From: Bolinopsis microptera
Lineage: Eukaryota; Ctenophora; Tentaculata; Lobata; Bolinopsidae
DNA length: 64,000 nucleotides
Direction: 5' to 3'
Assembly (NCBI RefSeq): GCF_026151205.1
Contig: NC_087075.1
Location: forward strand, 3,322,359 to 3,386,358
Positions within the stretch are counted from its first letter, which is position 1. The number at the start of each line of letters is the position of its first letter. The notes beneath the pieces are model-generated. The model was not told where the DNA came from, ran no database searches, and saw only the letters and a list, made by a program, of their open reading frames with translations. Both the position numbers and the translations under genes were made by a program. Shown here one piece after another: positions 37,046 through 64,000 of the stretch.

Positions 37046-37290
37046 ACATTTCAGTTTAATTATTAATTTTTAGAAATATCCTTGATAATGTGTGATGATT
37101 TGATTGGAAACTTTCATCAAACGAAAGTTGTGTCATTATTATTCGACTCGATTTGATTTTTAAATATTTCCCCTTAAAATGTGTATGGAAAATGTCCCTA
37201 CAATCTTCAATATCCTTTGAAAAAACAAGTAATTGTTGTCAAAAATTGAAATTTATTTGATTTATTGTGACCATCAAATATTTAGGTAGG

Positions 37291-37457
37291 ATGGGTGCCG
37301 ACAAGGTAGACAAGGTAGACAGAGAACACAGGGGCATCCCTCAGGCAGTCTTTCTTGAAGATGTGGACAGTTACATGTCATCCACTACCCCTGAAAAGAA
37401 TGCAGCTGCAGTACTCAAAGATTTTGATGAACAACTCCAAAAGTACAAATACATGGA
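37291..37457 (+). CDS. VBP1: Prefoldin subunit 3 (VBP1), first exon, truncated
   Basis: Encodes the N-terminus of prefoldin subunit 3 (VHL-binding protein 1), part of the six-subunit cytosolic chaperone that hands unfolded actin and tubulin to the CCT chaperonin. The peptide from ATG 37291 contains HRGIPQAVFLEDVDSYM and VLKDFDEQLQKYKYME, which match the conserved start of the family. The first coiled-coil helix begins there. The family usually runs about 190 residues, but only about 56 are present. At 37457 the sequence changes without a splice donor into the middle of the tandem-repeat intron, so the gene is cut by a misassembly or insertion. A TTTAG acceptor-like site precedes the ATG. An upstream in-frame non-ATG extension is not needed. 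No other VBP1 exon was seen in the window. Confidence 0.85.
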
Positions 37458-40400
37458 ATCCCATCACAGATGTTCGAAAGGAATTCCTGTGAATGAAATG
37501 CAACTATTGTTATGAACTACACCCGCACACACTTTGACACTTATCCCAATATTCAAATAAAGCGAACCATCCTAAAAGGGGTACTTCGAAATCATTAAAA
37601 CTGATTGCCAGACGGCTGAAACTTGCAGTCTATAAAATACTTGACTAAACTCGACTATTACTTGATGATGATTGTGTTGGTGGCCAGTATCTGGAATCAA
37701 GTTCAAGTGGCTGTCAAGCCTGTCCGGCAGATCAATGAGAGTTTAGCAGCAAAACCGCTGACTTCTTCTGCACAGCATGTCCAGCTGACATAGAGGTAGC
37801 TCTGGTATCAGGAACACAAGAAAGTGACTGCACTGGAGTAGTTGTTTGTTTCCTAAAAATTGGGGGGAACGAAGGGTTTCATCGATCAATTTATTTTAAT
37901 CTTGATTGACAATAATGGTGCGAATAAACATAGAATGAAAATACTGAGCAACAAGCAAGTTTAGTTAATTTGTAAAATAATTGGTATTACTATACGTTTA
38001 GGAGGTCCCATCACAAGATGCTCGAAGAATTCCTGTATGAATGAATGACAACTATTGTAATCATGAACACCACCCGCACACACTTTGTCACTTATCCATA
38101 ATATTCAAATAAAAGCGAACCATCCTAAAAGGGTACTTCGAATCTTAAACTGCTTGGCCCAGCGGCCTGTAACTTGCAGTTCTATAAATTACTTGACTAA
38201 ACTCGACCTTATACTTGCAGAAGATTGTGTTGCGGGCAGTTATCTGGATCAGTCAAGTGGCTGTCAAGCCTGTCCGGCGATTCAATGGAGTTTGCAGCAA
38301 ACGCAGCTTCTACTGCACGGCATTGTTCCAGCGACAAAGAGGTAGACCTCTGGATCTGGAACACAAGAAAGTGCTGCTCTTTGTGTAAGTTGTGTTTTCT
38401 TAAAAATTGGAGGGACGAGGGGGTATCTGATAATTTATGTTAATCTTAGAATATGCAATAATGTGTGCGATTAAACATAGACTGATATTTCTGTACGTCA
38501 ACAAGCAAAGTTTAGTATTTGTACAATATATTGGTATTACTATACGTTTATGAGGTCCCATTCACAGATGCTCGAAAAGGAGTTCCTGTGATTGATGCAA
38601 ACTATTGTGTTGACCACACCGCACACACTTTGCCACTTATCCAATATTCAATTAAAAGCGAAATCCCTAAAAGGGTACTTCGAATCAAACTGCTTGCCAG
38701 CGCTGAACTTGCAGTTCTATTAAATACTTGATAATCTCGTCTATACTTGCAGAAGATTGGTTGCGGGCCAGTATCTGGATCAGTTCAAGTGGCTGTCAAG
38801 CCTGTACGGCGATCAATGTGAGTTTAGCAGAAACGCAGCTTCTACCTTGCACGGCATGTCCAGCTGATCAAGAGGTAGCCTCTGGATAGGAACACAAGAA
38901 AGTGACTTGCACATGGAGTAAGGTTGTTGTTTTTTTTCTTTAAAATTGGAGGACCGAAGGGGTTTCATCCTGAAATTTATTGTTAAATTCTAGAATGAAT
39001 AATGTGTGCGAATAAATCATAGACTCTGAAATACTGACGTCAACAGCAAAGTTTAGTATTTGTACATTAATTGGGTATTACTATTCGTTTATGAGGTCCA
39101 TCCAGGGCTCGAAAGGAATTGCTGTGATCTGAAATGCAAACTATTGTTTATGAACACCACCCGCCACAATTTGACACTTATACAATATCAAATAAAAGCG
39201 AACCATCCCTAAAAGGGTACTTCGAATCTTAGACTGCTTGCCTGCGGCTGAAACTTGCAGTTCTTTAAATACTTGGACTAACTCGACTATACTTGAGATG
39301 ATTGTGTTGCGGGCCAGTATCTGACAGTCAAGTGGCTGTTCAAGCCTGTCCGGCCAGATCAATGGGAGTTTAGACAGCATAACGAGCTTCTACCTGCACG
39401 CATGTCCAGCTGACAAGAGGGAGCCTCTGGATCAGAACACAAGAAAGTGACTGCACATGGAGTAAGTTGTTGTTTTCTAAAATTTGGGAGGGACCGAAGG
39501 GGTTCATCATGAAATTTATGTTATTTCTTAGAAAATGCAATAATGTGTGCGAATAAAAGTAGACTGAAATTACTGACGGCAACAAGCAAAGTTTTAGTAT
39601 TTGTACAAATAATGGTATTACTATACGTTTATGAGGTCCCATCAAGATTGCTCGAATGGAATTCCTGTGAATGAAAATGCAAACTATTGTATATGAACAC
39701 CCACCCGCACACACTTTGACACTTATCCAATATTAAATAAAAAGCGAAACCATCCTAAAAGGGTTACTTCGAATCTTAAACTGCTTGCCAGCGGCCGATA
39801 CTAGCAGTTCTATAAATACTTGACTAAACTCGACTATACTTGCAGAAAGATTGTGTTGCGGGCCCAGTTCTGGATCTGGGGGGGTCCCCAAAAGTGGTGT
39901 CAAGCCTGTCCGCAGATCAATGGAGTTTAGCAGCAAAAAAACCGCCAGCTTCTACCTTCACGGCATGTCCAGTGACAAAGCGGGTAGACTCTGGATCAGG
40001 AACACAAGAAAGTTGACTGCACATGGAGTAATTGTTGTTTCTAAAAATTGGAGGGACCGAAGGGTTCTTCCTGAAATTTATGTTAATCTTAGAAATGCAA
40101 TATGTGTGCGAATAAAATAGACTGAAAATACTGACGTCAACAAGCAAAGTTTAGTATTTGTTACAATAATTGTATTACTATACGTTTATGAGGGGTCCCA
40201 TCACAGATGCTCGAAAGGAAATCCTGTGAATGAAATGCAACTTTGTATATGAACACCACCGCTACACCACTTTTGACCACTTATCTTATTCAAATAAAAG
40301 GAACCATCCTAAAAGGGTACTTCGAAGCTTAAAACTGCTTGCCAGCGGCTGAAACTTGCACGTTCTATAAATACTTGGACCTACACTCGGACTATACTTG

Positions 40401-43400
40401 CAGAAGATTGTGTTGCGGGCCAGTATCTGGATCGGTCAAGTGGCTGTCAAGCCTGTCGGCAGATCAATGGAGTTTAGCAGCAAACGCAGTTCTACCTGCA
40501 CGGCATGTCCAGCTGAAAAGAGGTAGCCTCTGGATCAGGAACACATGTAAGTGACTGCACATGGTGTAAAGTTGTTGGTTTCCTAAAATATTGGAGGGAC
40601 CGAAGGGGTTCATCCTGGAATATTTATGTTTATCTTAGAAATGCTATAAATTGTGCGATTAACATAGACTGAAATACTGACGTCAACAAGCAATGTTTAG
40701 TATTTGGACAATAATTGGTATTACTATACGGTTATGATGTCCCATCACAGATGCTCGAAGGAATTCCTGTGATTTGAATGCAACTATTGTATATGAACAC
40801 CACGCACTCACTTTGACACTATCCAACTATTCCAAATAAAAGCGAACCCACCCTAAATGGGTTACTTTCGAAAAAATCTTAAACTGCTTGCCAGGCGGCT
40901 GAACTTGCAGTTCTTTAATTAACCTTGACTTAAACTCGACTATTACTTGCAGGTGATTGTGTGGGGACAGTATCTGGATCAGTCTGAGGTGGCTGTCAAG
41001 CTGTTCCCGCAGATCAATGGAGTTTAGCAGCAACGCAGCTTTACCTGCACGGCATGTCCAGCTGACAAAGTGGTAGCCTCTGGATCAGGAACACAAGGAA
41101 AGTGATGCACATGGAGTAAGTTGTTGTTCCTAAAAATTGGAGGGACGAAGGGGTTCATCTGAAAATTTATGGTAATCTTAGAAAGGCTAATATGTGTGCG
41201 ATAAACATAGACTGATTACTGGGACGTCAACAAGCAAAGTTTAGTTTTGTACATAATTGTATTACTATACGTTATGAGGTCCCATCACAGATGATCGAAA
41301 GGAATTCATCGTGGAATGAAATGCATCTATTGTATATATGAAACACCACCGCACACACTTGAACACTTATCCAATATTCAAATAAAAAGCGAACCACCTA
41401 AAAGGTACTTCGAATTCCTTAAAACTGCTCTTGCCAGCGGCTGAAACTTGCAGTTCTATAAATACTTGACTAAACTCGACTATACTGCAGTAGATTGTGT
41501 TGCGGGCCAGTATCTGGATCAGTCAAGTGGCTGTCAAGCCTGTCCGGCCAGATCAATGGGAGTTTAGCAATGCAAAACGCAGCTTCTTACTGCACGGCAT
41601 GTCAGCTGGACAAAGAGGTAGCCTCTGGATCAGATCACAAAGAAGTGATGCACTTGGAGTAAGTTGTTGTTTCTTAAAAATTGGAGGGACCGAAGGGGTT
41701 CATCTGATATTTATGTTAATCTTAGACATGCAATATGTGTGCGAATAAAATAGGACTGAAATATGACGTCAACAAGCAAAGTTTAGTATTTGTACAATAA
41801 TGGTATATTACTTATACGTTTATGAAGTACCATCAACAGATGATCGAAGGAATTCCTGTGAATGAAATGCAACTATTGTATATGAACCCACCCGCACACC
41901 ACTTTGACACTTATCCTATATTACATATAAAAGCGAACCATCCTAAAAGGGTACTTCGAATCTTAAACTGCTTGCCAGCGGCTGAAACTTGCGAGTTCTA
42001 TAATTTCTGCTAAACTGACTATTACTTGCAGAATTTGTTTGTTGCGGGCCAGTATCTGGATCAGTCAAGTGGCTGTAGAAAGCCTGTCGGCAGATCATGG
42101 AGTTTAGCAGCAAACGCCGCTTTCTCCTGCACTGCATGTCCTAAAGCTGTACAAGAGGTTAGCCTTGGATCAGGAACACTAGAAAGTGGATGCACATGGA
42201 GTTTGTTGTTGTTTCCAAAAAAATTGGAGGGGGAACGAAGGGGTTCATCCTTGAAATTTATGTTTAATCTTAGAAATGCAATAATGTGTGCGAATTAACA
42301 TTAGACTGAAATACTGAACGTCAACAAGCAAAGTTTAGTATTTTGTACAATAATTGGTATTTACTTTACGTTTATGAGGTCCATCTCAGATGCTCGAAAG
42401 AATTCCTGTGAATGAATGCAACTATTGTTTATGAACACCACCGCACACAATTTGGACACTTATCCAATATTCAAAATAAGCGATACCATCCCTAAAAGGG
42501 TACTTCGAATCTTAAACTGCATGCCAGCGGCTTGAAACTTGCCTGTTCTATAAATACTTGACTAAACTGAATATTACTTGCAGAAGATTGTGTTGCGGGC
42601 AGTATCTGGATCAGTCAAGTGGCTGTCAAGCCTGTCGGCAGATAATTGGAAGTTTGCAGCAAAACGCGCTTCTACCTGCACGGCTGGTCCAGACTGACAA
42701 AGAGGTAGCCCTCTGGAATCAGGAAAACACAAGAAAGTGACTGCACTTGGAGGTAGTGTTGTTTCCTAAAAAATTGGAGGGACCGAAGGGGTTCATCTGA
42801 AATTTTATGTTAATCTTAGAAATGCAATAATGTGTGCGATAAAACATAGACCTGAAAATACTGACGTAAACAGCAAAGTTTAGTATTTGTACATAATTAG
42901 GTATTACTATACGTTTATGAGGTCCCATCACAGATGCTCGAAAGGATTCCTGTGAATGAAAATGCAACTTATTGTATATGAACACACCGCACACCCCACC
43001 TTTGACACTTATCCAAAATTCAAATAAAAGCGACAACCATCCCTTAAAGGGTACTTCGAATCTCTTAAACTGCTTGCCAGCGGCTGAAACTTGCTGTTCT
43101 ATAAATACTTGACTAACTCGGGAATATAATTGCCAGAAGATTGTGTTGGGGCCAGTATCTGGATCAGTCAACATGGCTGGTCAAGACTGTCCGGGCAGAT
43201 CAATGGAGTTTAAGCAGCAAAAGCCAGCTTCTACCTGCACGGCATGTCCAGCTGATCAAAGAGTAGACCTCTGGATCTGGAACACAAGAAAGTGACGCAC
43301 ATGGGTAAGTTGTTGTTTCCTAAAAAATTCGGAGGGACCGAAGGGGTTCCTCCTGAAAAATTTTTTGTTATTCTTAGATATGCAATAATTGTGTGCGAAT

Positions 43401-46400
43401 AAAAATAGGACTGAAATATGACTCAAACAAGCAATGTTTAGTTTTTGTACAATAATTGGTATTAATATACGTTTATGATGGTCCCTTCACAGATGCTCGA
43501 AGGAATTCCTGTGAATGTAATGCAACTATTGTATTTGAACACCACCCGCACATACTTTGACACTTATCTAATATTCAAATAAAAGCGAACCATTCCCTAA
43601 AAGGGTATAATTCGAATCTTAAAACTGCTTGCCAGCGGCTGACTTGCAGTTCAATATAATACTGGACTAAACTCGACTAGACTTGCAGAAGATTGTGTTG
43701 CGGGCCAGTATCTGGATCGTTCAATGGCATGTCAAGCCTGTCCGGGGCAGATCAATGGAGTTTGCAGCTACGCAGCTTATACCTGCACGGCAATGTCAGC
43801 TGACAAAGAGGTATGCTCTGGATCAGGACACAAGAAAGTGTACTGCACATGAGGTAAGTTGTTTGTTTCTAAAAATTGGGAGGGACGAAGGGGTTTTCAT
43901 CCTGAAATTTAGTTAATCTTAGAAATTGCATTTAATGTGTTGCGATAACTAGACTGAAATACTGACGTCAACAAGCAAGTTTAGTATTTGTACTATAATT
44001 GGTATTACTATACGTTATGAGGTCCCTTCAACAGATGCTCGAAAAGGAGTCCTGTGAATGAATCAACTAATGTATATGAAACCCCACCCGCACACTCTTT
44101 GGGACACTTATCCAATATTCAAATAAATGCCGAACCATCCCTAAAAGGGTTCTTCGAATCTTAAACTGTTGCCAGCGGCTGATACTTGCAGTTCTATAAA
44201 TACGTGACTAACTCGACTATACTGCAGAAGATTGTTGTTGGAGGGCCTGTATCTGGATTCAGGTCAAGTGGCGGTCAAGCCTGTCCGGCTAGATCAATGG
44301 AGTTTAGCAGCAAACGCTGCTTTACCGCACGGAATGTCCAGCTGACAAAGAGGTAGCCTCTGGATCAGGAACACTAGAAAGTGACTGCACATCGGTAAGT
44401 TGTTAGTTTCTAAAAATTGGAGGGACCGAAGGGGTTCATCCTGAAATTTATGTTAATCTTAGAAATGCAATAATGTGTGCGAATATACATAGACTGAAAT
44501 ACTGACGTCAACAAGCAAAGTTTAGTATTTGTACAATAATTGGTATTACTATACGTTTATTGAGGTCCCATCACAGATTCTCGAAAGAAATTCTTGTGAA
44601 TGAAATGCAACTTGGTATATGAACACCACCGCTACACACTTTGACACTTATCAATATTCAAATAAAAGCGAACCATACTCTAAAAGGGTACTTCGAATCT
44701 AAACTGCTCTGCAGCGCTGAAAACTTGCAGTTCTATAATACTTGACTAAACTCGACTATACTTGCAAGAAGATCAGTGTTAGCGGGCCAGTTTCTGGATC
44801 AGTCAAGTGGCTGTTCAAGGCCTGTTCCGGCAGATCAATGGTGTTTAGCAGCAAAACGACAGCTTCTACCTTTGCCGGCATGTCCAGCTGACAAAAGAGT
44901 TTTGCCTCTGGATCAGGAACACCACTAGAAAGTGACTGCACATGGGTATGGTTGTTTTTCCTAAAAATTGGAGAGGGACCGGAAAGGGGTTCATCCTGAA
45001 ATTTATGTTAATCTTAGAAATTGCAATAAGGTGTGCGAATAAACATAGACTGAAATTCTGACGTCAAACAAGCAAAGTTTAGTATTTGTACAATATTTGG
45101 TATCTACTATAAGTTTATGAGGTCCCATCACTGATGCTCGAAAGGAATTCCTGGAATGAAATGCAACTATTGTATATGAACACCACCCGCACACACTTTG
45201 GTCACTTATCAATATTCAAATAATAGCGAAACCATCCCTAAAAGGGTACTTCGAATCTTTAAACTGCTTGCCAGCGGCTGAAACTTGCAGTTTCTATATA
45301 TACTTGAACTTAACTCGACTATATTGGCAGAAGATTTGTGTTGCGGGCCTGCCAGTATCTGGATCAGTCAGTGCTGTCAAGCCCTGTCCGGCATGATCAT
45401 GGAGTTTAGCAGCAAACGCGCTTCTACCTGCCACCGGCATTCAGCTGACCAAAAAGAGGTAGCCTCTGAGATCGGAACACAAGAAAGTACTGCACATGGA
45501 GTAAGTTGTTGTTTCCTAAAAATTGGTGGGACCGAAGGGGTTCATCCTGAAATTTATGTTAATCTTAGAAAGCATTTAATGTGTGGGAATAAAACTTAGA
45601 CTGTAATACTGACGTCAACAAGCAAAAGTTTTGTATTTGTACAATTAATTGGTATTCTAACGTATATGAGGTCCCTTCACATGTGCTCGAAAGGAATTCC
45701 TGTGATTGAAATGCAAACTATTGTTTATGAACACCACCCGCACACACCGTTGGACACTTATCAATATTCAAATAAAAGCGAACACATCCCTAAAAGGTAC
45801 TTCGAATCTTAAACTGCTTGCAGCGGCTGAAACTTGCAGGTTCTCATAAATTCTTGCGATAACTGACTATACTTGCAGAAGAATTGATGTTGCGGGCCAG
45901 TATATGGTTCAGTCAAGTGGCTGTCAAGCCTGTCGGCAGATCTAATGGCGTTTAGCAGCAAACGTGTTCTACCTGCACGGCATGTCCAGCGACAAAGAGT
46001 AGCCTTCTGGATCAGGAAACAAGAAAGTGACTGCACATGGAGTAAGTTGTTGTTTCCTAAAAATTGGAGGACCGAGGGGTTCATCCGGAAATTTAATGTT
46101 ATCTTTGATATGCAAATAATGTGTCGTAATAAAACATAGATGATAAATATGACGTCAACAAGCAAAGTTTAGTATTTGTATCATAATGGTATTACTATAC
46201 GTTTATGAGGGTCCATCACAGGTTGCTCGAAAGGATTCCTGTGAATGAAATGCAAACTATTGTATAATGAACACATCCCGCACACACTTTATGCACTTAT
46301 CCAATATTCAAATAAAGCGAACCATCCCTAAAAGGTTACTTCGATCTTAAACTGCTGCCTGCGGCTGATAACCTTGCAGTTCTATAAATACTTGACTAAA

Positions 46401-49400
46401 CCTCGATATACATTGCAGAAGATTGTGTTGGAGGGGCCAGTTCTGGATCAGTCAAGTGGCTGTCAGACCTGTCCGGCAGATCAATGGTAGTTTAGCAGCA
46501 AACGCAGCTTCTACCTGCACGGCATGTCCAGCTGACAAAGCAGTAGCCTCTGGATCAGGAACACAATGAAAGTGACTGCCACAGAGTAAGTTGTTGTTTC
46601 CTAAAAATTGGTAGGGACCGAAGGGTTCATCTGAAATTTATGATTAATCTTAGAATGCAATAATGTGTGTGCGAATAAACTTAGACTGATATACTGACGT
46701 CAACAAGCAAAACGTTTAGTATTTGTACAATATTGGTATTACTATACGTTTATGAGGTCCCATCACAGATGCTCGAAAGGAAGTCCTGTGAAATGAAATG
46801 CAATATTGTATATGAACAACACCCGCACACACTTTTGACACTTATCCAATATTCAAATATAAGCGAACCATCCCTAAAAGGGGACTTCGATTCTTAAATG
46901 CTTGCCAGCGCTGATAAAACTTGCAGTTTATAAATTATTGACTAACTCGACTATACTTGCAGAGATTTGTGTTGCGGGGCCTGTATCTGGATTCAGTCAT
47001 GTGGCTGCAGCCTGTCCGGCAGATCAATGGAGTTTAGCAGCAAACGCAGCTTCTTCCTGCACGGCATGGTCCAGTGGACAAAGAGGTAGCCTCTGGATCA
47101 GGAACACAAGAAAGTGACTGCACATGGAGTAAGTTGTTGTTTCCTAAAATTGGAGGGACCGAAGGGGTTCATCCTGAAATTTTGTTAATCTTAGAAATGC
47201 ATTATGGTGTGCGAAATTGACATAGAGAATTAACGACGTCAACAAGCAAAGTTTTGTATGTGTACATATAATGGTATTACTATACGTTTATAGGTCCCAT
47301 CACAGATGCTCGAAAGGATTTCCTGTGAATGAAATTGCAACTATTGTATTTGAAACACACCCGCCCACACACTTTACCCTTATCCATATTCAAATAAAAG
47401 CGAAAACCATCCCTAAAAGGGTATTCGAATTCTTAAACTGCTTGCACAGCGGGCTGAAACTTGCAGTTCTATAAATACTTGATTAAACTCGCTATACTTG
47501 AGAGATTGTGTTGCGGGCCTGTATCTGGATCAGTCACGTGGCTGTCAAGCTGTCGGCAGATCAATGGAGGATTTAGCAGCAAACGCAGCATTCTACCTTG
47601 CACGGCATGTCCAGCTGACAAAGAGGTAGCCTCCTGGATCAGGAACACAAGAAAGTGACTGCACTGGAGTAAGTTCGTTGGTTCCTAAATTGGAGGGACG
47701 GAAGGGTTCATCCCTGAAATTTATGTTTAATCTTAGAAATGCAATAATGTGTGGCGAATAAACATAGACTGAAAATACTGACGTCAACAAGCAAAGTTTA
47801 GTATTTGTACAATAATTGGTATTACTATACGTTTATGAGGTCCATCAAGAATGCTCGAAGGAATTCCTGTGAATGAAAATCAAACTATTGTAATGATACC
47901 ACCCGAACACACTTAGACACTTATCCAATATTCAAATAAAAGCGAACCATCCCTAAGGGTAACTTCGAATCTTAAACTGCTTGCCAGCGGCTGAAACTTG
48001 CATTTCTATAAATACTGTTGACTAACTCGACTATACTTGCAGAAGATTGTGTGTGCGGGCCAGTATCTGGCTCAGTAAGTGGCTGTTCAAGCCTGTCCGG
48101 AAGATCAATGGAGTTAGCAGCAAAAACGCAGCTTCTACCTGCACGGCTTGTCAGCTGACAAAAGTGTTGCATCTGGTTCAGGAACACAAGAAAGTGTCTG
48201 CACATGGAGTAGTTGTTGTTTCCTAAAAATTGGAGGGACCGAAGGGGTTCATCCTGAAATTATGTTAAAATTAGAAATGCAATAATGTGTGCGAATAAAA
48301 CATTAGACTGAAATACTGACACGTCAAACAAGCAAAGTTTAGTATTTGTACAATTATTGGTATTACTATTCGTGTATGAGGTCCCATCACAGATGTCGAA
48401 AGGAAATTCCTGTGAATGAAATGCAACTATTGTATATGAACAACACCCGCACCCACTTTGACACTTATCCAAGCATTCAATAAATAAAAAGCGAACCATC
48501 CCTAAAGGGTACTTCGAATCCTTAAACTGCTTGCAGCGGGCCTGAAACTTGCAGAGTTCTATAAATATTGACTAAAACTCGACTATACTTGCAGAAGATT
48601 GTGTTGCGGGCCAGTATCTGGTTCAGTCAAGTGGCTGTCAAGCTGGTCCGGCAGATCAATGGAGGTCGTAGCAGCTAACGCAGCTTCTACCTGCACGGCA
48701 GTCCAGCTGACAAAGAGGTAGCCTTGGATCAGGAACAAAGGAAAGTGACTGCCGCCCTCAACCCATTTTTTTTGGGGGGGGGTGTAAGTTGTTTGTTTCC
48801 TAACAATTGGAGGGACCGAAGGGGAAAAGGGGTTCATCATGAAATTTATGTTAATCTTAGAATTGCAATTGATGTGCGAATAAATAGACGCTTGAATAAC
48901 TGACGTCAACAAGCAAAGTTTAGTATTTGTACAATAATTGGTATTAATATACGTTTATGAGGGGCCCTTCAAAGGATGCTAGAATGGAATTCTGTAATGA
49001 AATGCAAAATATTGAATATGAACAACCACCCGCACACACTTTGACTCTTATCCATTATTCATAATAATGCGAACCATCCCTAAAAAGGGTACTTCGAATC
49101 TTAACTGCTTGCCAGCGCTGAACTTGCAGTTCTATTAATACTTGACTAAAACTCGATATACTTGCAGAGATTGTGTTGCGGGGCCAGTATCGGATCAGTA
49201 CAAGTGGCTGTCTAGCCTGTCCGGCAGATCAATGAGGAGTTAGCAGCAAACGCAGCTTCTACGCACGGCATGTCCAGCTGCAAAGAGGAGGCCTCTGGAG
49301 CAGGAACACAAGAAGTGACTGCACTTTGAGAGTAAAGTTGTTGTTCCTAAAAATTGGAGGGCCGAAGGGGTTCATCTGAAATTTATGTTAATCTTAGAAA

Positions 49401-52400
49401 TGCAATAATTGTGCGAATAAACATAGACTGAAATACTGGAGACGTCAACAAGCAAAGTTTAGTATTTGTACAATAATTGGTATTACTATACGTTTATGAG
49501 GTCCATTCACAGATGCTCGAAAAGGATTTCCTGTGAATGAAAATGCAACTATTGTATATGAACACCAACCGCTACACACTTTGACACTTATCCATATTCA
49601 AATAAAAGCGAAACCATCCCCTAAAGGTTAATTCGATTCTTAATATGCGTCCAAGCGCGGAAATAAAAACCCCTGCAGTTTATAAATTACTTGATAAAAT
49701 CGACTATACTTGCAGAAGATTGTGTTGCGGGCCTGTTTCTGTTCAGTCAGTGGCTGTCAGCCTGTCGGCAGATCAAATGGGTTTAGCAGCAAACGCAGCT
49801 TCTCCCTGCAGGCATGTCCAGCTGACAAAGAGGTAGCCTCTGGTATCAGGAACACAGAAAGTGACTGCTTGGAGTAAGTTGTTTTGTTTTCCTAAAATTT
49901 GGAGGGACCGAAGGGGTTCATCACCTGAAATTTTTGTTAATCTTGAAATGCAATAATGTGTGGAATAACATAGACTGAAATCTGACGTCCCACAAGCAAA
50001 GTTTAGTATTTGTACAATAATTTGGTATTACTATACGTTATGAGGTCCCATCACAGATGCTCGAAAAGGAATTCTGTGAATGAAATGCAACTATTGTATA
50101 TGAACCACCACCCGCACACACTTTGACATTTATCCAATAGTGCAAATAAAAGCGAAACCTTCCTAAAAAGGGTATTCGAATCTTTATAACTGCTTGCCTG
50201 CGGCTGCAACTTGCATTTCTATAAATATGACTAAACTCGATATGCTTGCAGAAGACTTGGTGTTGCGGGCCAGTATCTGATTCAGTCAAGGGGATGTTCA
50301 TAGCCTTGTCCGGCAGATCAATGGTGTTTGCAGGCAAACGCGCTTCCTACCTGCACGGCATGTCCAGCTGACAATAGAGGTAGCCTCTGGATCAGGAAAA
50401 CAAGAAAAGTGGACTGCACATGGAGTAAGTTGTTGTTTCCTAAAAATTGGAGGGACCGAAGGGGTTCATCCTGAAATTTTATGTTAATCTTAGAAATGCA
50501 ATAATGGTGCGTATAACATAGGACCTGAAATATGACGGTCAACAAGCAAAGTTTAGTATTTGTACTATAATTGGTTTATTACTCTACGTTTATGAGGTCC
50601 CATCACAGATGCTCGAAGTAATTCCTGTGAATGTAATGCAACTATTAGTATATGAACCACCACCCGCACATCTTTGACACTTTCAATATTCAAATAAAGC
50701 GAACCATTCCTAAAAGGGGGTACTTCGATCTTAAACTGCTTGCCAGGGCTGAAACTTGCAGTCTATAAATATTGACTAAACTCGTCTATACTTGCAGAAG
50801 ATTGTGTTGCGGCCTACCATGTATCGGATCAGTTCAATGTGGCTGGTCAAGGCTGTCGGCAGATCATGGCGTTTAGCAGCAAACGCAGCTTTTACCTGCA
50901 CGGCATGTCAGCTGACAAAGAGGTTAGCCTCTGATCAGGAAACACAAGGGAAGGTGACTGCCACATGGTGTAAGTTGTTGTTTCCTAAAATTTGGAGTAC
51001 CGAAGGGGTTCATCCTGAAATTTATGTTATCTTAGAAATGCCAATAATAGTGGGCGAATAATCATTGACTGAATACTGACGATCAACAAGCAAAGATTTG
51101 TACTTTGTACAATAATTGGTATTACTATACGTTTATGAGGTCCCATCACAGATGCTCGAATGGATTCCTGGTGAATGAAATGCAACTTATTGTATTTTGA
51201 ACACCACCGCACACCACTTGGACAACTTATTCCAAATTCAAATTAAAAGCGAATCCATCCCTAAAAGGGTACTTCGAATCTATAACTGCTTGCCAGCGGC
51301 TGAAATTGCGTTCTATATATACTTGACTAATAACTCGACTTTACTTTGCTAGAAGATTGTGTTGCGGGCCAGTTTCTGGATCAGTAAAGTGGCTGTCAAG
51401 CCTGTCAGGTGATCAATGGGTGTAGCAGCAAACGCAGCTTCTACCTGCACGGCATGTCCTGCTGACAAAGAGGTGCCTCTGGATTCAGGAACACAGAAGT
51501 GACTTGCACACTGGTGTAAGTTGTTGTTTCCTCAAAATTGGTGGATACGAGGGGGTCTATCTGAAATGTATGTTAATCTTAGAAATGCAATAATGTGGTG
51601 AGGAATAAACATAGACTGAATATACTGACGTCAACAAGCAAAGTTTAGTATTTGTTACAATAATTGGTATTACTAAACGTTAATGAGGTCCCATCACAGT
51701 GTCTCGAAAGGATTTCCTGTGTATGAAAGCAACTATTGTATATGAACACCACCCGGCACACACTTTGACACTTATCAATATTCAAATAAAAGCGAACCTC
51801 CTAAAGGGTACTTCGAATCTTAACTGATTGCCAGCGGCTGAAACTTGCAGTTCTATAAATTACTTGACTAAACTCGACTATACTTGCAGAAGATTGTGTT
51901 GCGGCGCCAGTATCGGGATCAGTCAAGTGGCGGTCAAGCTGTCCGGCAGATCAATGGAGTTTAGCAGCAAACGCAGCTTCTACCTGCACGGTTGTCAGCT
52001 GACAAAGAGGTTGCCTCTGGACAGGAACAAAGAAAGTGACCTGCCCACTGGAGTAAGTTGTTGTTTCCTAAAAATTGGAGGGACGAAGGGGTTTTCATCT
52101 GAAATTTATGGTTTAATCTTAGGAATGCAATATGTGTGCGAATAAACATAGACTGAAATACTGACGTCAACAAGCAAGTTTAGTATTTGTAAAATAATTG
52201 TATTACTATACGGTTTATGAGGTCCCCATCCCATCAAGATGCTCGGAAAGGAATTCCTGTGAATGAAAATTGCACTATTGTATATGAACAACACACGACA
52301 CTACACTTTGACACTTATCCCATATTCAAATAAAAGCGAACCATCCCTAAAAAGGGTACTCTTCGAATCTTAAACTGCTTGCCAGCGGCTGAAACTTGCT

Positions 52401-55400
52401 GTTCTATAAATACTTGATAAACTCGACTATACTTGCAGAAGATTGTGTTGGGGCCAGTATCTGGATCAGTCAAGTGGGCTGTCAGCCTGTCCGGCAGATC
52501 AATGGACGTTTAGCAGCAAACGCTGCTTTCTACCTGCACGGCTTGTCCAGCTGGACAAAGAGGTAGCTCTGGATCTGGAAACACAAGAACGTGATGCACA
52601 GTGGTGTAAGTTGTTGTTTCTAAAATATAGGAGGACCGAAGGGGGTTCATCCTGAATTTATGTTAATCTTAGAAAATGCAAGAAATGTGTGGGGAAATAA
52701 AACATAGACGGTATACTGACGGTCAACAAGCAAAGTTTTAGTATTTGTACAATAATTGGTATTACTATACGTTTATGAGGTCCATCACTGATGCTCGAAA
52801 GGAATTCCTGTGAATGAAATGAACTATTGTTTTGAACACCACCCGCACACACTTTGACACTGTATTCCATTATTCAAATAAAAGCAGGAAACCATCCTCT
52901 TAAAGGGTTCTTCGAATCTTAATCTGCTTGACCAGCGGCCTCGATAACTGCAGTTCTATAAATACTTGGACTATCTCGACTATACTTGCAGAAGATTGTG
53001 TGCGGGGCCAGTATCTGGAATCAGTCAAGATGGCTTCAGCCTGTCCGGCAGATCGATTGGAGTTTAGCAGCAAACGCAGCTTACTCACCGGCACGGCATG
53101 TCCAGCTGACAAAGAGGGTAGCCTCTGGATCAGGAACACAAGGAAAGTGATGCACTGGAGTAGTTGTTGTTCTAAAAATTGGGGACCGAAGGGGTTCCAT
53201 CCTGAATTTATGTTAATCTTAGAAATGCAATTGTGTGCGAATAAACATAGACTGTAAAATACTGACGTCAACAAAGCAAAGTTTAGTATTTGTACAATAA
53301 TTGGTATTACTATCACGTTTATGAGGTCCCATCACAGATGCTCGAAGGATTTCCTGTGTATGAAATGCCTATTGTTATGTAACTCCACCGCACACACTTG
53401 ACACTTATCCAATATTCACATAAAAGCGAACCTCCCTAAAAGGGGTACTTCGAATCTTAAACTGCTTGCAAGCGGCTGAAACTTGCTGTTCTATAATACT
53501 TTGACTAAAACTCGTCTATTCTTGCAGAAGTTTGTGTTGCGGGTCAGTATCTGGATCAGTCATGTGGCTGTCAAGCCTGGCCGGCGATCAATGAGTTTTG
53601 CAGCAAACGCAGCTTCTACCTGCACGGCATGTCCAGCTGACAAAGAGGTAGCCTTGGATCAGGAAATCACATGAAAGTGACAGCTCATGGAGGTTAGTGG
53701 TTGTTTCCTAAAAATTGGAGGGACCGTAAGGGGTTCATCTGAAATTTATGTTAATCTTAGATATGCAATAATTGTGTGCGAATAAACATAGGAGAAATTA
53801 CTGACGTCAACAAGCAAAAGTTTAGTATTTGTCAATATTTGGTATTACTATACCGTTTATGAGGTCCACATCTCAGTTGCTGAAGGTTTCATGTGAATGA
53901 AATGCAACTATTTTTATGAACACCACCCGCACACTACTTTGAACACTTTATCCAATATTCAAATAATAGAGAAACCATCCCTATTAAGGGTACTTCGAAT
54001 CTTAAACTGCTTGCCAGCGCGCTGAAACTGCAGTTCTATAAATACTTGACAACTCGACTATACTTGTGAAGATTGTGTTGCGGGCCGTATCTGGGATCAG
54101 TCACGTGGCCTGTCAAGACTTGTCCGGCAGATCAATGGAGTTTAGAAGCAAACGCAGCTTCTACTGCACGGCAAGTCCAGTGACAAAGGAGGTTGCCTCT
54201 GGATCAGGATACCACAAGAAAGTGAATGCACATGGAGTAAGTTGTTGTTTCCTAAAATTTGAGGGCAGGGACGAAGGGGTTCTCTGAAAATTTATTTTAA
54301 TCTTTGAAGGCAATAGGTGTGCGATAAACATAGACCTGAATACTGAACGTCAAACAAGCAAAGTTTTTAGTTTTGGTACAATATTGGTATTACTATACGT
54401 TTATGAGGTCCCATCACAGAGCTCGAAAGGAATTCCTGTGAATGAAATGCAACTATGTAATTTGACAACCACCCGCACACACTTTGACATGATCAATATT
54501 CAATAAAAGCGGATACCATTCCCTAAAAGGGTTATTCGATTCTTAAACTGCTTGCCATGCGGCTGAAACTTGCAGTTCTCTATAAATTTTACTTGACTAA
54601 ACTCGACTATACTTGCAGATGATTTGTGTTGCGGGCCAGTATCTGGAACAGTCAATGGTGTCAAGCCTGTCCGGCAGATCAATGGAGTTTAGCAGCAAAC
54701 GAGCTTCTACCTGCACGGCATGGGGGGGGGTCCAGAGGACTAAGAGGTAGCCTCTGGATCCATGGGAAACAGATAAGTGACTGCACATGGAGTAAGTGTT
54801 GTTTCCTAAAAATTGGAGGACGAAGGGGTTCATCTGAAATTTATGTTAATCTTAGAATGCATTAATGTGTGCGAATAAACATAGACTGAAATACTGACGT
54901 AACAAGCAATAGTTTAGTATTGTACAATAATTGGTATTCTATACGGTTTTTGGGTCCCATCACTGATGCTCGAAAGAATTCCTCGTGAATGAATAAGCAA
55001 CTATTGTATTTGAAACACCCGAACACACTTTGACCACTTATCAATATTCAAATAAAAAAGGCGAACCATCCTAAACAAGGGTACTTCGAATCTTAAACTT
55101 GCTTGCAGCGAGCTGTAAACTTGCGTTTCTATAAATTTCTTGACTAAATCTAGGGACTATACTTGCAGAAGGATTGTGTGCGGGCCTGTATCTGGAATCA
55201 GTCATGGTGGCTGTCAAGCCTGTCCGCATATCAATGGAGTTTAGCAGCAAAACGCAGCCTTTACCTGCACGGAATGTCCAGCTGACAAAGAGGTAGCCTT
55301 ATGGATCAGGAACACAAGAAGTGACTGCACATGGTAGTTAGTTGTTGTTTCCTTAAAAAATTGGTGGGACCGAAGGGTTCATTCATGAAAATTGATGTTA

Positions 55401-58400
55401 ATCTTAGAAATGCAATTGATATTGTGGTGCGGATAAACATAGACTGAAATATGAACGTAAACAAGCAAAGTTAAGTATTGTACAATAATTGGTATTACTA
55501 TACGTTTATGAGGTCCCTTCCCAGATGCTCGAAGGAATTCCTGTGAATGTTAATGCAACTATTGTATATGACACCCCCGTCACAACTTTGACACTTATCC
55601 AATATTCAAATATAAAGAGATCCATCCTAAAAGGGTACTTCGAATCTTAACTGCTTGCCGCGGTCTGAGACTTGCAGTTCTATATAAATACTTGACTAAA
55701 CTCGACTATACTTGCAGAAGTTTGGTTGCGGGCCAAGTATCTGGATCAGTCAAAGTGGCTGTCAAGCCTGTCCGGCAGATCAATGGAGTTGAGTTTAGCA
55801 GCACCGCATGCTTCTACTGCACGGCTAGTCCAGCTGACAAAGAGGTAGCATCTGGATCAGGATCACAAGATAGTGACTGACATGGAGTAAGTTGTTGTTT
55901 CCTAAAAAATTGGGAGGACCGATGGGTTCATCTGATAATTTATGTTATTTAGAAATTTGCATAATGTGTGCGAATAAACATAGACTGAAATACTGACGTT
56001 CAACAAGCAAAGTTTAGTATTTGTACATAATTGGTATTACTATACGTTATATGAAGTCCCCATCACAGATGCTCGATAAGGAATCCTCAGTGAATGAAAT
56101 GCACTTCTTGTATAATGAACACCACCCGCACCACTTTGACATTATTCCAATATTCAAATCAAAGCGAACATCCCTAAAAGGGTACTTCGACTTAAACTGC
56201 TTGCCAGCGGCTGATACTTGCAGTTCTATAAATACTGGACCTAAACTGAATATACTTGCAGAAGATTGTGTGGCGGGCAGTATCTGGATAGTCAAGGGCT
56301 GTAAGCCTGTCGGAGATTCAATGGAGTTTAGCAGCAAACGCTGCTTCTGCCTGCACGGCATGTCTAGATGACAAAGAGGTAGCTCTGGATCAGGACACAA
56401 GAAAGTGACTGCACATGGAGTAAGTTGTTGTTTCTAAAAATTGGAGGGACCGAAGGGGTTCTTCCATGGAAATTTATGTTATATCTTAGAAATGCCAATA
56501 TAATGTGTGAGCGAATTAACATAGATGGAACTACTGACCGTCACAAGCAAAGTTTAGTATTTGTACAATAATTGGTTTACTATTCGTTTATGGGGAAGGT
56601 ACCCATCACAGATGCTCGAATGGAATTCCAGTGAATGAATGCAAACTATTGTATATGAACACCACCGCACACACTATGACACTTATCCAATATTCATATA
56701 AAAGCGAACCATCCCTAAAAGGAGTTATTCGAATTACTTAAAACTGCTTTGCCAGCGGTGAAACCTTGCAGTGCTTAAATACTTTGATAACTCGACTATA
56801 CATTGCAGAGATTGTGTTGCGAGGCAGTATCTGGATCAGTCAAGTGGCTGTCAAGCCTGTCCGGAGAATAATGGAGTTTGCCAGCAAACGCAGCTTCTAC
56901 CTTGCAAGGCCATGTCCAGTCTGGACCAAAGAGGTAGCCTCTGATTCAGGAACACCAAGAAAGTGATGCACATGGAGTAAGTTGTTGTTTCCAAAAATTG
57001 GAGGGACCGAAGGGGGGTTTCTTCCTGAAATTTATGATTAATCTTAGAATGCAATAATGTGTGCGAATAAACATAGACTGAATACTGACGTCAACAAGGC
57101 AACGTTTAGTATTTGTACAATATTGGTATTACTATACGTTTTTGAGGTCCCATCACCGATGCTCGAAAGGAATTCTGTGAATGAAATGCAACTATTGTAT
57201 TATGAACTCCACACGCACACACTTGACATTATCCAATATTCTAAATAAATGCGAACCTCCCTAAAAGGGTACTTCGAATCTTAATGCTTGCCAGCGGTGA
57301 AACTTGCAGAGTTCTATAAATACTTGACTAAAACTCGGACTTACTTTGGCAGGAGATTGTGTTGCGGGCCAGTGCCAGTATCTGGATCAGTCAAGTGGCT
57401 GTCAAGCCTGTCCGGACAGATCACTGAGTTTAGCAAGCAAAGCAGCTTCTCCTACCACGGTTGTCAGATGACAAGAGGTAGCCTCTGGATCATGGAACAC
57501 AAGAAAGGGACTGCACATGGAAGTAAGTTGTTGTTTCCTAAAATGGAGGGACGACGGGGTTCATCCTGAATTTATGTTACATCTTATGTAATGCAATATG
57601 TGTGAGAATTAATCATAGATGAAATTACTGACGTCAACATAAGCATAAGTTTAGTATTTGTACAATAATTGGTATTACTATACGTTATGAGGTTCCCATC
57701 ACAGATGCTCGAAAGGAATTCTGTGATTGAAATGCAACTATTGTATATGAACACCACCAGCACACACTTTGACACTTATCCAATATGCTCAAATAAAAAG
57801 CTGAACCATCCCTAAAAGGGGTACTTCGAATCTTAAATGCTTTGCCAGCGGCTGAAACTTGCTGTTCGTAAATTTTTTTTTCTTGACTAAACCTCGTCTA
57901 TACTTGCAGAAGATTGTGTGCGGGCAGTATCTGGATCAGTCAAGTGGCTGTTCAAGCCTGTCCGCAGATCAAGGTGTTTAGCAGCAAAACGCAGCTTCTA
58001 CTTCACGGCCATGTCCAGCTGGGACAAAGAGGTAGCCTCTGGATCATGGAACACAAGAAGTGACTGCACATGGTAAGTAAGTTGTTGTTTCCTAAAATTG
58101 GAGGGACCGAAGGGGTTCATCTGAAAGTTTGTTAATCTTAGAAATGCAATAATGTGTGCGAATAAACAAGACTGAATACTGACTCAACAAGCAAAGTTTT
58201 AGTATTTGTACAATAATTGGTATTTACTATACGTTTATGACGGTCCCATCACAGATGCTCGAAAGGAATTCCTGTGAATGAAATGCAAATATTGTATATG
58301 AACAACACCGCACACACTTTGGACACTTATCCAATATTCAAATAAAAGCGAACCATCCCTAAAAGGGGGATACTTCGAATCTTAATCTGCTTGCCAGCGG

Positions 58401-61400
58401 CTGAAACTTGCGTTCTATAAAATACATTGAATAAAAATCGACTATACTTGCAGAAAGATTGTGTTGCGGGCCCAGTAGTATCTGGACAGTAAGGTGGCTG
58501 TCAAGCCTTGTCCGGCAGATCAATGGAGTGTGCAGCAAAGCAGCTTATTCCTGCACGGCATGGTCCAGCTGACAAAAGACAGGTAAGCCTCTGGATCAGG
58601 AACACAAGGATAAAGTGACTGCACTTGGAGTAAGTTGTTTGTTTCTTAAAATTGGAGGGACCGAAGGGGTTCATCTGAAATTTATGTTAATATTAGAAAT
58701 GCAATAATGTGTGCGAATTAACATAGACTGAAATACTGGACGTCAACATCGCTAAGTTTCGTATTTGTACAATATTTGGTATTACTATACGTTTATGAGG
58801 GTCCCATCACAGATGCTCGAATGGAAATCTGTGAATGAAATCGCAACTATTGTATATGAACACCACCGCACACACTTTGTTTTATCCAATATTCAAATAT
58901 AAAGCGAACCTTCCCTAAAAGGGTACTTCGAATCTTAAAATGCTTTTGCCCGCGGCTGTAACTTGCCAGTCTATAAATACTTGACTAAACTCGACTTACT
59001 TGCAGAAGTTTGTGTTTGCGGGCCAGTATCTGGATCAGTCAAGTGGCGTCAAGCCTGTCCGGCAGATCAATGGAGTTTAGCAGCAAAACGCAGCTTCTAC
59101 CTGCCGGCATGTCAGCTGACAAAGAGGTATGCCTCTGGTATCAGGAACAGAATGAAGTGATGACAATGGAGTAAGTTGTGTTTCCCTAAAAATTGGAGTG
59201 GACCGAAGGGGTTCATCTGGTGGAAAATTTATGTTAATCTTAGAAATGCAATAAGTGTGAAATAACATAGACTGATACTTGACGTCAACAAGCAAAGTTA
59301 GTATTTGTACAATAATTGGTATTACTATACGGTTTTTTATTAATGAGAGGTCCCATACAGATGCTCGAAAGGAATTCCTGTGAATGATAATGCAAAATAT
59401 TGTATATGAACACACCCGCGCCAACACTTTGAATGACATTATCAATATTCAAATAAAGCGTAACCATCCCTAATAGGGTACTTCGAATCTTAAACTGCTT
59501 GCCAGCGGCTGAAAACTTGCTAGTTATATTAAATATCTTGACTAAACTCGGACTATACTTGCAGAAGATTGTGTTGCGGGCCAGTATCTGGATCAGTCAA
59601 GTGGCTGTCAAGCCTCGTCCGGCAGATCAATTGAGTTTAGAGCAACGCAGCTTTACCTGCACGGACATGTCCAGCTGACAAAGAGGTAGCTCTGGTTCAG
59701 GAACAAGAATAGTGACTGCACAACTGGAGTAAAAGTTGTTGTTTCCTAAAAATTTGGAGGGACGAAGGGAGGTTCATCCTGAAATTTATGTTAATCTTAG
59801 AAATGAAATAATGTGTGGAATATAATACATAGACTGATATACTGGACGTCAATAAGCAAAGTTTAGTTATTTGTACAATAATTGGTATTACTTTACGTTT
59901 ATGATGTCCCATCCAGGAGTGCTCGAAAGGAATTCCTGTGAATGAAATGCAAAACTATTGTATATGAACACCACCCGCACACACTTAGACAGCTATCCAA
60001 TATTCAAATAAAAGCGAAAACCATCCCTAAAAGGTACTTCGGATCTTAAATGCTTGCAGCGGCTGAAACTTGCAGTTCTATAAATACTGATAAACTCGAC
60101 TATACTTGCAGATGATTGTGTTGGTTTGCGGGCCAGTATTACTGATCAGTAAAGGTGCTGTCACAGCCTGTCGGCAGATCAATGGAGTTTAGCAGCAAAC
60201 GCGCTTATACCTGCACGGCATGTCCAGCGACAAAGAGGTTTTTTAGCCTCTGGCTTAGGAACAAGAAAAGTGACTGCACATGGTAGTAAGTTGTTGTTTC
60301 CTAAAAATTGGAGGGACGAAGGGGTTCATCCTGAAATTATGTTAATCTTAAAATGAATAATGTTGTAGACGATTAAACATATGGACTGAAATACTGACGT
60401 CAACAAGCAAAGTTTTGTATTTGTACAATAATTGGTTTTCTATACGTTTATGGAGGTCCATCCAGTGCTCGAAAAGGAATTACTGTTGAATGAAATGCAA
60501 CTATTGTATATGAACACCACCCGCACACACTTTGACCTATCCCAATATTCAAATTAAATGCGAACCATCCCCTAAAAGGTACTTCGAATTCTTAAACTGC
60601 TTGCCTGCGGCTGAAACTTGCAGTTCTATAATTACTTGACTATACTCGACTATACTTGCAGATGTTGTGTGAGGGCCAGTATCTGGATCAGTCAAGTGGC
60701 TGTCAAGACTGGCCGGCAGATAATTGTGTTTAGCAGCAAACGCAGCTCTACCTTGCACGGCATGTCCAGCTGACAAAGAGGTTAGCTCTGGATCTGGAAC
60801 ACAAGAAAGTGATGCACATGGAGTAAGTTGTTGTTTCCTAAAAAAAATGGATGTGGACCGAAGGGGTTTTCATCCTGATTATGATAATCTTAGAAATGCC
60901 AAAAATGTTTATTTTTTGTGCGAATTAATTAGCTGAAATACTGACGTCAACATGCACAAGTTTAGTATTGTACAATTAATTGGTATATTACTATACGTTT
61001 ATGAAGGTCCCATCACAGATGCTCGAAGGAATTCCTGGTGAATGGAATGCAAAAATATGGGATATGAACAACCACCCGCTCACACTTTGACACTTATCCA
61101 ATATTTCAAATACAAAGCGAACCATCCTAAAAGGGTACTTCGAATCTTAACTGCTTTGCCGCGGGCTGAAAACTTGAAGTTCTATAATACATTGACAAAA
61201 CTCGACTTACTTGCAGAAGATTGTGTTGGGGCAGTTATCTGGAATCAGCAAGTGGGCTGTCAAGCCTGTCCGGCAGTTCCAATGGAGTAGAGTGTAGCAG
61301 CAAACGGCAGCTTCTACCTGCACGGCATGTACAGCCGACAAAGAGGTAAGCCTCTTGGATCAGGAAACACAAGAAAGTGGACTGCAAATGGAGTAAGTTG

Positions 61401-64000
61401 TTGTTTCCCTAAAAAAAATTGGAGGGCCGAAGGGGTTCATCTGAAATTTATGTATCTTAAGATAATGCAAATAATGCGTGCGAATAAACATAGACTGAAA
61501 TACTACGTCCACAAGCAAAGTTAGTTTTGTTCAATAATTGGTATTATATACGTTTTTGAGGTCCCCTATCAACAGATGCTTCGAAAGGAATTCCTCTGTG
61601 AATGGAAATGCAATATTGTATATGAACACCACCCGCACACACTGTGACATTATCACATTCAAAATAAAGCGAACCATCCCTAAAAGGGTACTTCGAATCT
61701 TAAACTGCTTGCCAGGCGGTCTGAAACTTGCAGTTCTATACATCTTGACCTAAACTCGATATATTGCAGATGATTGTGTTGCGGGCCAGTATCGGTTCAG
61801 TCAAGTGGCTGTCAAGCCTGTCCGGCAGATCAATGGAGTTTTGCAGCAACGCAAGATTCTAACCTGCACGGCATGTCCGCTGACAAAGAGGGTAGGCCTC
61901 TGGATCAGGAAACACAAGAAAGTGACTGCAACATGGAGTAAGTTGTTGTTTCCTAAAAATTGGAGGGACGGAAGGGGGTTCATCCTGGAAATTTCATGGT
62001 AATCTTAGAAAATTTTTTCAATAATGTGCTGCGAATAACATAGACTGATATCTGACGTCAACAAGCAAAGGTTTTAGTATTTGTAACAATAATTGGTATT
62101 ACTATACGTTTATGAGTCCATCACAGATGCTCGAAAGGAATTCCTGTGGTATGAAATGCAAAACTATTGTTATGAACACCACGCACACACTTTGACATTA
62201 TCCAATATTCAAAAAGCGACCATCCCTAATATAGGGTACTTCGAATCTTAAAACTGGCTTGACAGCGGGCCTGAAACTGCAGTTCTATAAATACTTGAAT
62301 AACTCGACTATACCGTGAGGAAGATTGTGTTGCGGGGCCAGTATCTGGATCAGTCAAGTGGCTGTCAAGCCTGTCGGCAGAATCAATGGTGTTTAGACAG
62401 CAAACGCAGCTTCTTCCTGCAACGGCATGTTCCAGTGACAAGAGGTAGCTTGGTCAGGAACACAAGAAAGTGACTGCACATGGAGTAGTTGTTGTTTCCT
62501 AAAAATGGAGGGACGAAGGGGTTCATCCTGAATTTATGTTAATTTAGAAATGATATAATGTGTGCGAAATAAATCATGACTGAAAATACTGACGTCAACA
62601 CGCAAAGTTTAGTATTTGTACAATAATTGGTATTACTATATCGTTTATGAGGTCCCATCACAGATGCTTCGAAAGGTATTCCTGTGAATGAAATGCAACT
62701 ATTGTAGAGAAACACACCCGCACACCTTGACACTTATCCAATATTCAAATAAAGCGAACATCTAAAAGAGGTACTTCGAATCTTAAACTGCTTTGCCAGC
62801 GGCTGAAACTTGCAGTTCTATAAATACTTGGACTAAACTCGACTATACTTGCTGAAAGATTGTGTTGGAGGGCCAGTATCTGGATCAGTCAGTGGCTGTC
62901 AAGCCTGTCGGCAGATCAATGGTGTTTAGAGCAAACGCAGCTTTAACCTGCACGGCATGTCCAGCTGACAAAGAGGTAGCCTCTGGATCGGAACACAAGA
63001 AAGTGACTGTACATGGAGTAAGTTGGTTGTTTCCTAAAAATTGGATGGACCGATGGGGTTCATACTGAAAATTTATGTTAATCTTTTAGAAATGCAATAA
63101 TGTGTGCGAATAAACATAGACTGAAATACTGACGTTCATCAAGCAAAGTTTGTATTTGCAATAAATGGTTTTACTATAGTTTATGAGGTCCCATCACAGA
63201 TGCTCGAAGGAATTCCTGTGAATGGTAATGAACTTTTGATATGAACACCACCGCACACCGTTGACACTTATCCAATATTCAAATAAAGCGAACCATCCCT
63301 AAAAGGGGTACTTCGAATCTTAAACTGCTTGCCAGCGGCTGAAACTTGCAGTTCTATAAATACTTGATAAACTAGACTAATACTTGCAGAAGATTGTGTT
63401 GGGGCCAGTATCTGGATCTGTCAAGTGGCTGTCAAGGCCTGTCCGGAGAATCAATGGAGTTTAGCAGCAAACGCAGCTTCTACCTTGCACGCATGTCCAG
63501 TGACAACAGAGGTAGCCTCTGGATCAGGACACAAGAAAGTGATGCACATGGAGTTATGTTGTTGTTTCCTAAAAATTTGGAGGGACGAAGGGTTCATCCT
63601 TGAAATTTATGTTAATCTTAGAATGCAATATGTGTGCGAATAAACATAGCTGAAATACTGACGTCAACAAGCAAAAGTTTAGTATTTGTACATTAATTGT
63701 ATTACTATCGTTTTGTGGGTTTTTTCCCATTCACACGTTGCTCGAAAGGAATTCTCGTGAATGAAATGCAAACTATTTTATATGAACACCACCCGCACAC
63801 ACTTTGACACTTATCCAATATTCAAATAAAAGCGAACCATCCCTAAAAGGGTACTTCGAATCCTTAAACTGCTTGCCAGCGGCTGAAACGTGCAGTTCTA
63901 TAAATCTTGACTAAACTCGACTATACTGCAGAAGATTGTGTTGCGGGCAGTATCTGGACTCAGTCACGTGGCTGTCAAGGCCTGTCCGCAGATCAATGGA
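37458..64000 (+). repeat. ~540 bp tandem array, 49 units, each with one exon
   Basis: Head-to-tail units fill the rest of the window and run off its end. The phrase GGGCCAGTATCTGGATCAGT recurs about every 547 bp, from about 37690 through 38240, 38770, 39317 and so on to 63408 and 63952, giving 49 occurrences. A consensus built by eye is about 540 bp: 165 bp exon plus 375 bp intron. Copies agree in consensus but each carries many private single-base deletions, insertions and A-to-T changes. I saw no variants shared between neighbours, as a true diverged array would have. This looks like unpolished long-read sequence of a very homogeneous array. The array starts mid-intron, fused to the VBP1 exon. 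Confidence 0.9.
37667..64000 (+). CDS. Repeated symmetric exon for a 55-residue six-cysteine module
   Basis: In each unit, TATACTTGCAG is followed by an exon of about 165 nt ending TGCACATGGA before GTAAGTTG. Two bases finish a codon at the start and one is left at the end, so the exon is symmetric, phase 1-1, and can repeat without shifting frame. The correct frame reads DCVAGQYLDQSSGCQACPAD, then QWSLAANAASTCTACPADKE, then VASGSGTQESDCTW and a split Lys. Cysteine spacing is C-x11-C-x2-C-x14-C-x2-C-x16-C, like the ephrin-receptor-like/GCC2_GCC3 cysteine-rich domain of extracellular proteins. The other two frames carry a stop in the consensus. Parts are read open in individual copies, for example 38085-38290 and 60724-60880. 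If transcribed through, this array would give a secreted or surface protein of at least 49 modules. Ends of the gene, signal peptide and membrane anchor are not in the window. Confidence 0.7.

Follow-up and report, generated by a model that had tools for sequence, protein, structure and literature searches.

In the ctenophore Bolinopsis microptera, we analysed a window of 64,000 nucleotides (C4:3322359-3386358 of a genome assembly of 264.65 Mb in 232 contigs), of which the right part is a tandem array of exons encoding a six-cysteine module. From window position 37458 to 64000, on the plus strand, the window contains 49 unpolished units of about 540 bp, each consisting of a 165-nt exon and an intron of about 375 nt, and the array runs onward to its right limit at C4:3455161, 69 kb past the window end. 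TRF detected a single tandem array that starts at window position 37459 and fills the rest of the window, with 48.5 copies, a period of 546 and a 540-bp consensus; from that position onward, 49 matches of unit length begin. The unit size and copy number given in a first-pass annotation of the window are thus borne out, and the array is confirmed to be real. We consider it probable that it forms part of one very large ctenophore gene for a type I transmembrane receptor-like protein, with a recent spread of the unit between loci and positive selection in sister arrays. A ctenophore source is well supported: of eight glutamate-receptor pieces fetched, six were compared with the PDB, and five of them matched ML032222a, a Mnemiopsis protein, best (one at 184.6 bits, though not identically), while vertebrate delta receptors came first for the sixth.

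Each unit contains the acceptor TATACTTGCAG, the 165-nt exon and a GTAAGT donor. For example, the acceptor TATACTTGCAG lies at window 40393-40403 on the plus strand, and the exon start AAGATTGTGTTGCGGG follows directly at 40404. The exon is symmetric, of phase 1-1, the spliced module reads KDCVAGQYLDQSSGCQACPADQWSLAANAASTCTACPADKEVASGSGTQESDCTW, and the predicted exon-exon junction joins TGGA to AAGATTGT. Polished copies in the same genome have the same splice sites and open frame, which agrees with the earlier reading of these signals as symmetric phase-1 coding exons. That reading had named stops in a polished consensus as evidence against coding, and we found none: the frame is open in the polished copies as well as in the consensus built from the 49 window copies.

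The interval C4:3311782-3455161, which starts at the polished left edge, contains 194 unit-length matches, comprising 7 polished units on the left, 15 very noisy units, 171 units of a noisy main stretch and 1 polished unit on the right. The 15 very noisy units form a second, noisier stretch, first in position, which begins at the polished left edge and reaches into the window's first 1.8 kb, where its right end occupies window 1-1799 on the plus strand.

The window copies are only about 90% alike because this stretch is unpolished, and the differences of about 10% among them are raw long-read error. In the 171 interior units, substitutions amount to 2.7%, insertions to 4.1% and deletions to 3.0%, with hardly any difference between exon and intron, the error level is even across the 95 kb of the main stretch, and the substitutions are strand-asymmetric (A>T 3.6% vs T>A 0.5%); the 15 units of the first stretch reach about 23% error in total. 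A biological divergence of about 10% is ruled out by this equality of exon and intron and by the private, strand-biased errors. At every unit position the alternative base stays at or below 11.5%, except at position 55, where 136 of 163 main-stretch calls are A while the left polished units have G; this intronic position is also the only one of 540 at which the majority consensus from the 49 window copies departs from the polished unit. At the left edge, five polished units in a row (C4:3312841-3315540) are 100% identical, and the full unit at the right edge matches without gaps at about 99%. The main exon type is the best or equal-best match for nearly all main-stretch exons (168/171), while in the first stretch it is so for 4 of the 15, at a noise too high to judge. 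An excerpt of the Bolinopsis microptera genome paper names PacBio continuous long read (CLR) libraries among those used, gap closing with TGS-GapCloser, polishing with pilon, and 13 chromosome-scale scaffolds making up 97.23% of the assembly (PMC10232365); such libraries and tools suit a raw-read fill of the array. Elsewhere, at C12:10646437-10652999, units 71-87% identical with many gaps lie beside cleaner copies and are probably unpolished fill too.

The annotation had likened the cysteine spacing to ephrin-receptor-like modules, and a resemblance to Ephrin-receptor-like/TNFR-like modules is supported. In the profile search that it had proposed, three joined modules passed the gathering cut-off of Ephrin_rec_like (PF07699; 36.7 against 23.1 bits), but one module alone did not (20.8). 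The ELAPOR1-like TNFR family (PF23091, cut-off 33.2 bits) gave 27.4 for one module and 63.4 for three, and TNFR_c6 (PF00020, cut-off 29.4 bits) remained below at 18.9 and 28.8, so that a single C4 module lies under every one of these Pfam cut-offs. The six cysteines, common to all these families, are invariant in 9/9 aligned modules. The best of five structure models reached a predicted local distance difference test (pLDDT) score of 83 and was the only confident one (the other four, 48-55). Foldseek matched its fold to modules of TNFR, EphB2 (TMq 0.70), CaSR and thyroglobulin (0.77), with E values of 0.05 or worse and none at or below 0.001.

Downstream of the array, on the same strand, lie a TSP1 exon (C4:3455287-3455538; Pfam TSP_1, E 1.4e-8), an Ephrin_rec_like match (E 2e-10), several Ig-like exons, one over the Pfam cut-off (Ig_2 and I-set) and the others weaker, CCP-like exons identified by eye, and a transmembrane segment, a hydrophobic stretch followed by YKK, within C4:3471046-3471354. 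Judged by eye, phase 1 fits at the splice sites of four of these exons, namely TSP1, Ephrin_rec_like, the last CCP-like one and the transmembrane one. Phase-compatible downstream exons for Ig domains and a transmembrane segment, with joint splicing predicted, are what a type I transmembrane protein of the Ig superfamily would have, and the downstream exons suggest a giant type I membrane protein. The single long repetitive extracellular region proposed earlier is supported, although these TSP1, Ig, Ephrin_rec_like and transmembrane exons had been missed, as had the occurrence of the exon-intron unit near different domain exons on other chromosomes.

The module also matched at all 150 places scored out of 624 candidates. 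Units that are on average at least 94% identical to the C4 unit are present on C1, C3, C8, C11, C12 and C13, related-unit arrays (about 88-92%) on C2 and at a second C12 locus (L036, the closer one being L017), and an array with introns differing by about 6-14% on C10; the arrays on C3 and C10 are polished and contain about two dozen units. The best 40 of 357 candidate intron copies, located on C3, C4, C8, C12 and C13, share 96-100% identity with the C4 intron. The great majority of the tabulated polished exons have intact splice sites and an open frame. Stops occur in 2 of the 60 tabulated exons from the fetched loci, one where the noisy C4 stretch begins and one in a C8 copy at the 87% level (L019), which has also lost a splice donor. 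Related module arrays with a period of about 279 bp, open frames and 54-57% identity to the query module were also seen at C6:2044256-2046256 and C7:3879437-3882088.

Some sister arrays have neighbouring domain exons, which probably belong to the same genes: LDLa exons near the C11 array (over the Pfam cut-off) and the C13 array (just under it), a DSL exon upstream of the C13 array, and an exon near the C3 array that is CCP-like by eye and has no Pfam match. At the C13 locus, past the LDLa exons, a long open frame of (DPEPVVPV)n-type repeats was noted on the minus strand (L014:1453-2883). The C1 locus and two C8 loci (L018, L019, L020, the last being the C8 locus of the closer units above) have about 9 kb in common around two exon units, at 97% and about 88%, and L018 also shares 99.7% stretches with sequence flanking the C13 array (L015). 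An open reading frame (ORF) without family assignment lies near the C1/C8 copies, and the single tested non-array ORF common to them had only a sub-threshold Pfam match. A mobile element was rejected in view of the 9 kb in common and this sub-threshold match, and we read the copies as probable duplicated genes.

For the comparison of exons and introns, 60 full-length module matches in the fetched loci, minus 4 irregular ones, gave 56 aligned exons, and 51 exons with introns within 12% of C4 (25 distinct exons) formed the intron comparison set. Differences between distinct exons reach 12% and fall mostly at amino-acid-changing sites. Summed over the 300 pairs of the 25 exons, divergence was 0.106 at amino-acid-changing sites, 0.054 at silent sites and 0.031 in introns; changing exceeded intron divergence in 289 pairs and silent divergence in 272. 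Changing divergence was higher than that of silent and intron sites together in all nine named pairs (p 0.037 or lower), and the C4 main type and the C13 type differ by 11 changing and 0 silent differences. Across 28 interior units without C10, the three codon positions gave 0.077, 0.066 and 0.021 and the introns 0.016 and 0.008, the largest intron signal being one indel-rich spot at unit positions 166-180. Minimal-mutation counts in 45 units without C10 were 49/122 changing, 9/40 silent and 70/378 intron (changing vs intron p=2e-6; changing vs silent p=0.03; silent vs intron p=0.33). In iqtree GY models omega was 2.19-2.79 (2 delta lnL 7.8-15.2 against omega fixed at 1, which is rejected), on a tree that recombination between units can disturb. 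When introns were restricted to within 2.5% of C4, which favours the exon-intron contrast by design, 42 of 49 units contained 20 exon types, with an exon diversity of 0.078 against 0.012 for introns. The cysteine codons showed no amino-acid change. The earlier statement that introns are as homogenised as exons therefore fails, since across arrays the introns are the more homogenised; recent amplification or homogenisation is supported. Considering the earlier interpretation as a whole, its coding phase-1 module array stands, while the intron claim and the left start of the array (see below) do not.

Toxin gene families have fast exons and slow introns, the Conus genes of one intron study reportedly being an example. 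Amino-acid-changing divergence exceeds intron divergence in both systems, but here the exons are tandemly repeated next to membrane-receptor-like domains, and nothing toxin-like was seen.

In the explanation that we prefer, each 540-bp unit would supply a phase 1-1 exon for one 55-residue TNFR/Eph-type cysteine-rich module together with its own intron, and in-frame splicing would produce a rod of roughly 170-200 modules, preceding TSP1, Ig-like, Ephrin_rec_like and CCP-like domains, a transmembrane helix and a cytoplasmic segment. Since the introns are identical, unequal recombination would alter the copy number without breaking the frame and would keep the units uniform. The exon-intron unit would have been copied recently between loci on several chromosomes, after which the sister-array exons would have diversified under positive selection while the introns stayed almost constant. 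We infer that the array is transcribed, that it is spliced with the downstream exons into one gene and that all exons are included, and likewise the rod shape, the receptor role and selection as the cause. If expressed, the array would give up to about ten thousand residues of one module (194 unit-length matches x 55). The excess of amino-acid over intron change may point to strong recognition or conflict pressure on the surface proteins of this comb-jelly-like animal. Phase-1 exon shuffling is usually inferred from ancient genes; here the copies are young enough for introns on different chromosomes to agree at nearly every base, so that shuffling can be followed directly.

Several observations weigh against this explanation. 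Changing divergence exceeds silent divergence alone at p < 0.05 in only 3 of the nine named pairs, with all arrays together the same comparison gives p=0.055, and the sensitivity of the codon-model tree to recombination has been mentioned. The five C2 units are identical in protein, those of C10 and of C12b nearly so, and the C4 array itself has no exon diversity; the diversity is therefore that between arrays and within C3, C13, C11 and C12. The CCP-like exons downstream had no Pfam match. Among the Cys-rich ORFs listed up to 16 kb upstream of the C4 array, which include, by eye, ORFs of long interspersed nuclear element (LINE) type, neither a signal peptide nor an N-terminal exon was found. 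The whole explanation draws on genome sequence. In C3 alone, silent change also tends to exceed intron change (p=0.066).

This C3 tendency fits the strongest alternative, in which the introns were homogenised by gene conversion or constrained, for instance by splicing control, with no positive selection on the exons. Older exon variants could then persist beside homogenised introns, and the summed silent divergence indeed exceeds that of introns; the difference between silent and intron change is non-significant in most groupings. However, old exons should carry silent changes too, whereas none separates the C4 main type from the C13 type, omega is above 1, and Rfam gives no family in the unit. 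An RNA element was rejected, with three units unmatched up to E 0.1. We regard this alternative as possible but unlikely.

A more speculative extension, which we hold only tentatively and consider less likely still, is a dispersed exon system. The near-identical introns would serve as recombination handles, and the module would be copied, expanded and exchanged between receptor-like genes across chromosomes, with selection rewriting the amino acids only. The result would be a germline diversification of cell-surface recognition, with an effect comparable to cassette-built receptors elsewhere, in an early-branching animal.

It is improbable that the length of the array is an assembly product, with the stretch of about 170 units arising from gap filling and the true array being much shorter. 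The interior is unpolished and adjoins a displaced block, and the excerpt cited above names TGS-GapCloser and pilon. On the other hand, the error is uniform over 95 kb, its strand asymmetry is that expected of one molecule, and none of the six top error-sharing pairs has both members in the main stretch, so this is not one piece pasted repeatedly; moreover, the C3 and C10 arrays reach about two dozen units in polished sequence.

We give slightly less weight to a non-coding satellite derived from an exon, that is, selfish tandem DNA that sits in or close to a gene and is either skipped or untranscribed. Satellites typically have very high copy numbers and are almost perfectly homogeneous, the L019 copy is disrupted, and coding is read from sequence, not transcripts. 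Against this, stops are confined to 2/60 tabulated exons, the cysteines and splice sites are conserved amid variation at other residues, and phase-matched domain exons follow downstream on the same strand.

Dscam-type clusters consist of tandem homologous equal-phase exons, and their gene also encodes Ig domains and a transmembrane segment. A similar cluster, with a single array exon per transcript, would suit the phase and splice sites common to all units, the Ig and transmembrane exons nearby and the many C3 exon types between near-identical introns, but it is very improbable here, since choosing one of 171 C4 interior exons, 168 of a single type, yields no diversity, and identical symmetric exons, which preserve the frame when joined, suit inclusion of all.

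The receptor-like gene that we propose has a close parallel in LPA-type coding variable number tandem repeats (PMC11462820). Both systems are tandem in-frame coding units with introns within the units and very similar copies, and both encode an extracellular cysteine-rich domain. The C4 array differs in having far more units (194 unit-length matches), a 540-bp one-exon unit, a TNFR/Eph-type module instead of a kringle, and unit copies on several other chromosomes. No earlier report of these arrays or of the exon-intron pattern was found among the literature matches listed, a scope outside which most subscription journals fall.

The array is interrupted in the window by a block at 1800-37457, and its apparent left boundary at 37458, taken by the annotation as the start, is artificial: array units also lie upstream, and the junction is a misassembly. 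An exon at window 37294-37456 on the plus strand, which we take to be prefoldin-subunit-3-like, is cut mid-exon at ...TACATGGAAT and fused to the array, whereas in a 98% identical copy at C4:3215317-3215579 the prefoldin-like frame continues uncut. An array start at 37458 is thus ruled out as an assembly chimera. Pfam gave no match for either copy of the exon. Window 37200-37457 corresponds to this same C4 segment at 98%, and window 26100-27100 to C4:3213174-3214170 at 97%, in the same order. Window 1800-2400 and 6000-7000 had no match at C4:~3213-3215.6 kb; elsewhere their best matches reached 86% on C2 and 88% at numerous dispersed, repeat-like places. The block therefore appears to represent C4:~3213-3215.6 kb from a second haplotype, displaced and with repeats inserted, and to lie outside the gene, with direct support for its right part only.

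Within the displaced block, a clean 91-bp tandem repeat occupies window 14846-18044 (35.2 copies, 97% matches). On the minus strand, LINE-type ORFs, one of 973 aa, lie at window 20959-25274 and 32945-36178 and appear by eye PHD-like, endonuclease-like and reverse-transcriptase-like. Between them, window 28884-31203 is a 2.3 kb C/T-rich (TCC)n-type repeat that shows a strong skew between the strands (GC skew about -0.4).

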